This document shows, one piece after another, positions 31,568 to 32,580 of a stretch of 32,580 nucleotides of DNA. Under the pieces are notes generated by a model. That model saw only the letters and a list, made by a program, of their open reading frames with translations. It had not been told where the DNA came from and did not search any database. Made by a program: the position numbers and the translations under genes. This DNA comes from Rhizobium sp. Q54. Lineage in GTDB: Bacteria; Pseudomonadota; Alphaproteobacteria; Rhizobiales; Beijerinckiaceae. The stretch is from contig CAMCMI010000004.1 in the NCBI GenBank assembly GCA_945875875.1, positions 1 through 32,580 of the forward strand. The letters run 5' to 3'. The first letter of the stretch is position 1. Each line of letters begins with the position of its first letter.

Positions 31568-31942
31568 TTACCTGAGCGCTTTGTATTCGGACAGCATGTC
31601 TTTGAGCGCGAGCGTGTACTTGCACATTAACTTGATGCCGCTCGCGGTGACGACGACGTTCTTAACGCGCTGATCGGAAATCTCGGTCTCGACTGCAACG
31701 AAGTTCAGCTCCTGAAGGCCGCGCAGATGCTTTCTGATGCTGACTTCGGTCGCCGCCAGATCCTTGTAAAGGGAGGATACGCTTGCGCTGCCGCCGTTGG
31801 CGGTCAGGTAGACGATAATCTCGAACGAGGTTTGGGCGGTCGTCGTGAAATAGAGCCGTTCCAGTGACGCAACCGACAATCGTACCTGCGCCTGTTTGTG
31901 AACCAGCGTGTCAGCACCCTTCGGCTCCTGCCCCCTCGTCAT
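31568..31942 (-). CDS. Small winged-helix (MarR-like) transcriptional regulator
   Basis: QTSFEIIVYLTANGGSASVSSLYKDLAATEVSIRKHLRGLQELNFVAVETEISDQRVKNVVVTASGIKLM. Confidence 0.75.
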   Translation of the reverse strand: MTRGQEPKGADTLVHKQAQVRLSVASLERLYFTTTAQTSFEIIVYLTANGGSASVSSLYKDLAATEVSIRKHLRGLQELNFVAVETEISDQRVKNVVVTASGIKLMCKYTLALKDMLSEYKALR

Positions 31943-32156
31943 AATTATCCCTTTGGTTGATCCATTCGCACCAGCAGAAACTTGGCGCACAGGCGGGACA
32001 AAATAAAACCAAAAGGTTTATGGCGATCTGTAGCGAGGCTTCGAGACAAGGCCATTGCAAATCAATGCTCTGTGAAAAAAGAGCATAATTGTCGCAAAAT
32101 GTTTTGGGTTTCTGCGCACAGCCAGTGGAGACGCTTCAGGCGACGTCGAGGGCTGA

Positions 32157-32202
32157 TGGTGCTGCGAGACAGGATTGAACTGTCGACCTCTCCATTACCA
32201 AT
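32157..32202 (-). pseudogene. 3' half of tRNA-Thr(GGT) (canonical positions 31-76 including CCA); candidate attachment-site scar
   Basis: Minus strand A-TTGGTAA-TGGAG-AGGTC-GACAG-TTCAATC-CTGTC-TCGCAGC-A-CCA; anticodon loop, variable loop, T-arm, acceptor 3' strand and CCA at exact canonical lengths; no matching 5' half. Confidence 0.8.
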
Positions 32203-32270
32203 TTATGAAGCGACCAATAAACCACTGTAGTAGAGGAGTTTTAGAGAAATTAAAAATATACGTTTATGAT

Positions 32271-32284
32271 CCGTTTATAAACGG
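32271..32284. promoter_or_regulatory. 14-bp perfect palindrome CCGTTTATAAACGG with an extra CGTTTAT half-site at 32261-32267
   Basis: Seen directly; in AT-rich DNA just right of the tRNA fragment. Confidence 0.5.
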
Positions 32285-32496
32285 GCGCCTATAATCAGAG
32301 GCTTGTGACTTAATCTTAGCTTTCAAAAAGAAGGGTATTTTGAACCACCTCCGTTAAAAAATTAAGAGGTTCAATATCATTCCGATTCTGAACTCAGCGT
32401 AAGATTTTTTCCATAGCATCCCTCTGTTTTATGCTTTATTTCCTATTCCAAGCCGCTTAAATGAGGTTGCTGTTCACTAGCCAAGAGGAGAACAGC

Positions 32497-32580
32497 ATGT
32501 CCATTCTCAAGTCCCTCACATTCACTGTCAGCCCGCAGCAAGTCGCTCGCAATCCCAAACTAATTCGGCGTCAGAAGCTC
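32497..32580 (+). CDS. 5' end of a CDS running off the window; possibly DUF6641-like
   Basis: AAGAGGAGAACAGC RBS then ATG: MSILKSLTFTVSPQQVARNPKLIRRQKL; family resemblance recalled, not searched. Confidence 0.5.
   Translation, partial: MSILKSLTFTVSPQQVARNPKLIRRQKL

Follow-up and report, generated by a model that had tools for sequence, protein, structure and literature searches.

The boundary at the end of the contig

The window, by which we mean the whole 32,580-bp stretch analysed, is the entire contig C4 of the draft genome of Rhizobium sp. Q54 (G000; 2.83 Mb in 289 contigs, 77% complete). Positions 1–32156 carry ordinary metabolic genes and represent host chromosome, namely the downstream flank of a tRNA-Thr(GGT) gene. 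The chromosomal gene closest to the junction (31568–31990, minus strand) encodes a winged-helix, HTH_34-like regulator (Pfam E-value = 9.6 × 10-5, under the family cut-off) and falls within a stretch that is conserved in G021, another genome of the same genus. Beyond it, the minus strand at 32157–32202 reads ATTGGTAATGGAGAGGTCGACAGTTCAATCCTGTCTCGCAGCACCA, in agreement with the first-pass annotation, which had recognized here an exact 3' half of tRNA-Thr(GGT); these 46 nucleotides run from the last 5' anticodon-stem base (nucleotide 30/31) to the CCA. The remaining sequence, 32203–32580, is the integrase-distal end of an integrated element, so that the window ends 378 bp into the element, where the contig is cut. 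The start of a DUF6641-family gene (32497–32580, plus strand, 28 codons) points into the element and is likewise cut by the contig end. It is 79% identical over 28 amino acids to a protein of genome G005, which itself matches Pfam DUF6641 above the cut-off (E-value = 5.8 × 10-9).

ARAGORN found no complete tRNA in the window, and no tRNA or other RNA was recognized there by Rfam at the gathering threshold. The best weak Rfam match, Plastid-ycf2 (E-value = 0.009), overlaps the fragment and lies far under the family cut-off, and it was rejected. For the 32-nucleotide 3' part of the fragment, 0.00 matches are expected in shuffled windows, even with three mismatches. A search of the whole genome recovered exactly two copies of the 46-mer, one in the window and the other at C58:14056–14101, where an intact tRNA-Thr(GGT) gene (C58:14027–14101) has it as its 3' part. 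A second, intact gene sharing all 46 bases, as had been predicted, therefore exists in the same genome, and contig C58 ends precisely at its CCA. The 5' anticodon strand of the intact gene is CTCCA and the window has ATAAA at this position, which was also noticed at first reading.

An uninterrupted site in a genome of the same genus

The first-pass annotation had called for comparison with a relative whose site is empty, and G021 is such a genome: its tRNA-Thr(GGT) locus (L023) is uninterrupted, with the intact tRNA contiguous with the downstream chromosome. C58 aligns to this locus at 91–96% identity as far as the CCA (L023 position 9771), and window positions 32202–29615 align to it at 90% identity from L023 position 9726 on. 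The alignments have exactly 46 bp in common, namely the 46-mer. No counterpart of 32203–32580 was found at the G021 locus, for which the junction sequences were also compared directly, and the orientation of the fragment in the window is consistent with the locus. Accordingly, the sequence below 32157 is chromosome and that above 32202 belongs to an integrated element. Both halves of the earlier proposal, chromosome to the left and element to the right, are thus borne out, the former because G021 joins the C58 flank to the left flank of the window and the latter because the sequence to the right is absent from G021 and resembles other element ends.

These comparisons also decide against the view that a full tRNA gene, or a chance tRNA-like sequence, lies here, with a 5' half mutated in place and no element involved. 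The attraction of this view was a D-loop-like string, CAGTGGTTTA, upstream on the minus strand, but this string is conserved element sequence and not a remnant of tRNA, since its counterpart GCAGTGATTTTTTAGTCGC is found at the end of a twin element on contig C119 (see below). Moreover, the 3' half is 100% identical to that of the functional gene, the 5' half is absent, the edge at nucleotide 30/31 is sharp, and G021 has an intact gene at this very place. If an element has entered the tRNA gene, an uninterrupted locus like that of G021 is to be expected, and a decayed tRNA can be regarded as ruled out.

The twin element in tRNA-Thr(CGT)

Window positions 32203–32580 are 81% identical to C119:1–374, and C119 runs on into the 3' half of tRNA-Thr(CGT) (C119, L041, 379–426). 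The opposite end is present on C231 (L067, 4012–4414), in which an intact tRNA-Thr(CGT) is followed by an element end with the N-terminus of a tyrosine integrase that begins about 140 bp past the tRNA. The layout of this twin is the same as that of the copy in the window. G021 is empty at both of its threonine tRNA genes, GGT and CGT, and the flanks of the twin overlap there by 48 bp. Based on C231 and C119 together with the comparison with G021, two threonine tRNA genes of this genome are occupied by related elements, a natural test of the anticodon-loop bases that an integrase reads. Other integrases encoded in the genome, on C63, C81, C94, C49, C75 and C51, were weighed as candidates for this element, and only that of C231, recovered with the G005 query, matches the family. 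On C63 (L061, 11008–12563), a tRNA-like 3' fragment on the minus strand, 77% identical to tRNA-Thr(CGT), adjoins a 455-amino-acid integrase on the plus strand, and the contig has no intact tRNA.

Window positions 32432–32580 and C119:1–149 are identical, and these 149 bases lie at the breaks of both contigs. C4 and C119 both stop here because the identical bases are shared by two elements; the shared interior of the two is absent from the genome bin. The outer 230 bases of the two copies differ markedly, whereas the 149 inner bases are identical. On one reading, the identical interior and differing ends reflect a recent exchange, or the spread of an interior between older ends.

Interpretation of the fragment

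We conclude, with a probability of roughly 95%, that a small integrative element in tRNA-Thr(GGT) has its far-end attachment site at 32157–32202. Exchanging strands in the anticodon stem-loop, a tyrosine integrase would join the circular form of the element to tRNA-Thr(GGT) in the chromosome. A working gene, now on C58, would be rebuilt with the tRNA 3' half that the element brings in, and the original 3' half of the host would be pushed to the far end of the element, beside the original downstream chromosome, which is the window. With a crossover in the anticodon loop, the window contains the half that originally belonged to the host, and the "intact" tRNA owes its 3' half to the element. In the window and in the complete relatives described below, the repeats have a constant left edge, which points to strand exchange in the anticodon stem-loop; the exact position of the crossover is inferred. 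The integrase and the left junction of the copy in the window lie outside the assembly, C58 ending at the CCA; this copy probably carries the same integrase. Spread between cells probably depends on a helper, because the elements are small and no transfer or capsid genes were recognized among their most-matched families.

As the assembly is a draft of 289 contigs in which C58 stops with the last base of the repeat, it might be supposed that element DNA located elsewhere, or existing extrachromosomally, was wrongly joined to the chromosomal flank through the 46 bp. The breaks of C4 and C119 at the 149 shared bases, too, indicate that repeats disturbed the assembly. Repeats of 46 bp are, however, shorter than the usual read lengths for such assemblies, and the same layout turns up independently elsewhere: both this genome and G073 show it at tRNA-Thr(CGT), and G005 shows it at tRNA-Thr(GGT). 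A chimeric join is consequently very improbable.

Related elements in other genomes

The same element occupies tRNA-Thr(CGT) in G073, where both of its ends are seen and the end corresponding to the window is 79% identical. In G071, a complete element of 8.95 kb is inserted in tRNA-Val(CAC) and closes with a 47-bp tRNA-Val fragment; it encodes the integrase, a glycosyltransferase, a collagen-repeat protein, a short tyrosine recombinase and a clamp-loader-like ATPase, as well as two larger unknown proteins, with small ORFs ahead of the fragment. G005 has two tRNA-Thr(GGT) 3' fragments 7 kb apart (C39, L024, 5519–12604), and the interval between them carries DUF6641 at one end and a broken integrase at the other. 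This interval is likely a tandem array or the remnant of one. Its integrase N-terminus runs into a segment of the short recombinase in inverted orientation. In G032, an end bearing DUF6641 lies at a tRNA-Gly(GCC) fragment, and a second sequence resembling an element arm is found directly behind it.

Other insertions use the same target. On another contig of G005 (C48, L044, 4234–5804), an intact tRNA-Thr(GGT) is followed by a different integrase, about 25% identical, which belongs to another element family at the same tRNA gene. In G025 (C67, 33304–117455; L025–L029), an intact tRNA-Thr(GGT) and a 45-nucleotide 3' fragment are 84 kb apart, probably representing a much larger island in this gene; the intact tRNA adjoins sequence 75% identical to the upstream flank on C58.

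Such other occupants bear on a variant of our main explanation, in which only some of the cells sequenced carry the element in tRNA-Thr(GGT), or different cells carry different elements. C58 breaks right after the CCA, where an empty site, this element or another would diverge, a stop that a mixed population might account for, and genomes of the same genus do have the other integrase or the probable 84-kb island at this gene. The contig of the window, however, crosses the fragment unbroken, so that a single arrangement seems to dominate on that side, and we consider a mixed population unlikely.

Integrases and their tRNA targets

An alignment search of GTDB genomes with the integrase yielded 107 relatives, of which 80 were kept; most are labelled Alphaproteobacteria. 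IMG/VR contained two relatives, both weak and partial, and an exact 31-mer of the element end was absent from it. In 60 of the 80 loci, the integrase match is preceded at 61–339 bp by an intact tRNA of the same strand; within that distance the other 20 showed no tRNA, whichever its orientation, in some cases because sequence was missing. Complete elements, 2.4–11.2 kb in length, are present in 12 loci and are bounded by repeats of 45–52 nucleotides that start at tRNA nucleotides 29–33. The targets include Thr(CGT), Thr(GGT), Val(CAC), Gly(GCC), Ala(GGC) and Arg (CCG, CCT and ACG), and also tRNAs for Pro, Phe, Met, Gln and Lys.

In a quick tree of 43 integrases, 12 changes of target were counted for 12 target labels, compared with a mean of 23.5 for shuffled labels. 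The choice of target is therefore largely inherited, with a switch now and then. The integrase of Thr(CGT) groups with the Val(CAC) clade (support 97).

Paired repeats inside the element ends

Inside both ends of the elements there are pairs of TAAACGG-like heptamers, spaced by 11 bp, whose distance from the end is nearly constant. In the window, the pair consists of TAAACGT (32260–32266, minus strand) and TAAACGG (32271–32277, minus strand), the latter forming a palindrome with an inverted TAAACGG at 32278–32284. At this DUF6641 end, the heptamers are 64 and 75 bp from the core in the window, C119 and G005, and their offsets in G071 and L121 are the same within 2 bp. At the integrase end, they are located 54 and 65 bp past the tRNA in C231, G073 and G071. 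The pair is missing from L108 and L125, which are more distant elements.

TAAACGG occurs in exact form 14 times in the left arms (2.0 kb) and 10 times in the right arms (2.1 kb), as against 25 times in whole loci totalling 176 kb, an enrichment that is rough in that the motif was picked after the ends had been viewed and the two sets overlap only partly. By analogy with the attachment sites of lambda-type systems, the paired repeats are probably arm-type sites of the integrase.

Shared genes and cargo

A short tyrosine recombinase is encoded in eight of the 12 complete elements and in G005. It and its homologues (L085, 8440–9033, for instance) are about 195 amino acids long, consist of a catalytic domain only, similar to that of XerC/XerD, and keep the expected catalytic-site residues; they may act in resolution, inversion or excision. 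Six of the 12, and again G005, encode a conserved protein of unknown family, here called LWFEY; its profile found no convincing relative in the PDB, and its predicted fold (pLDDT 65) was too poor for use. DUF6641-like proteins (four of 12) and a small protein resembling ribbon-helix-helix regulators (three of 12) also occur in G005. Searches of phage and plasmid records gave no match to DUF6641, and limited open-access searching of the literature found no mention of it.

The rest of the cargo differs between the complete elements. Among the 25 most-matched PHROGs and Pfam families listed for the 12 complete relatives, none is a capsid, terminase or conjugation family, and there is one tail-fibre-like match. 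Matches to the REP_ORF2-G2P profile were observed in L024 (14491–15030) and in three proteins of complete elements, and some elements may, judging from these profile matches, replicate by a rolling-circle mode.

Comparison with known mobile elements

Integrative and mobilizable elements are integrated, small and dependent on a helper, and the elements described here are apparently alike in these respects. They differ, however, in that a relaxase or a transfer origin was identified in none of them, whereas three of their proteins match the Rep profile REP_ORF2-G2P.

Small phage satellites (PICMI, PICI and P4; PMC10803314) share with our elements a similar size range, the reliance on an integrase and, as far as the families listed here go, the lack of recognized capsid genes. 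AlpA and the PICMI-type primase are, however, not among these families, integration takes place in tRNA genes and not next to fis (PMC10803314), and a helper phage is known for none of our elements. The tycheposons of Prochlorococcus and Methylophilaceae are large cargo transposons of 4–200 kb (PMC10872708). They resemble the present relatives in tRNA anchoring, in the adjacent tyrosine recombinase and in their aquatic hosts, and one integrase relative found here is from Methylophilaceae (L167). The complete elements of the present family, in contrast, measure 2.4–11.2 kb, a comparison made by description.

The closest likeness is to the genomic islands collected in Islander, in which a restored tRNA with the integrase marks one end and a displaced 3' fragment the far end (PMC4383910), and of which 2083 of 3919 use the anticodon site "A" (PMC4383910). 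Here too, an intact tRNA and a displaced fragment of the same tRNA, in matching orientation, mark the two ends, the core starts in the anticodon region (nucleotide 30/31 in the 46-mer, 29–33 in relatives), and in the twin copy on C231 and in relatives a tyrosine integrase lies inside the element. No mechanistic difference from these islands was found, and the mechanism of integration is textbook; the family here is small and seemingly unnamed.

In short, what began as a curiosity of 46 bases is now an integration boundary that has been mapped and checked against an empty site, and from it a coherent family of very small mobile elements has come into view, with integrases that have changed their tRNA target several times. 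Within the limited open-access literature searched, this family appears to be undescribed. We lean, by a modest degree, toward regarding it as an undescribed family of about 2–11 kb, mainly in Alphaproteobacteria, with a tRNA-adjacent integrase acting at the anticodon loop and, in many members, TAAACGG pairs, the short recombinase, LWFEY and DUF6641, which has switched repeatedly among tRNA targets (Thr, Val, Ala, Gly, Arg and others) and of which two copies can reside in one genome, in two threonine isoacceptor genes.
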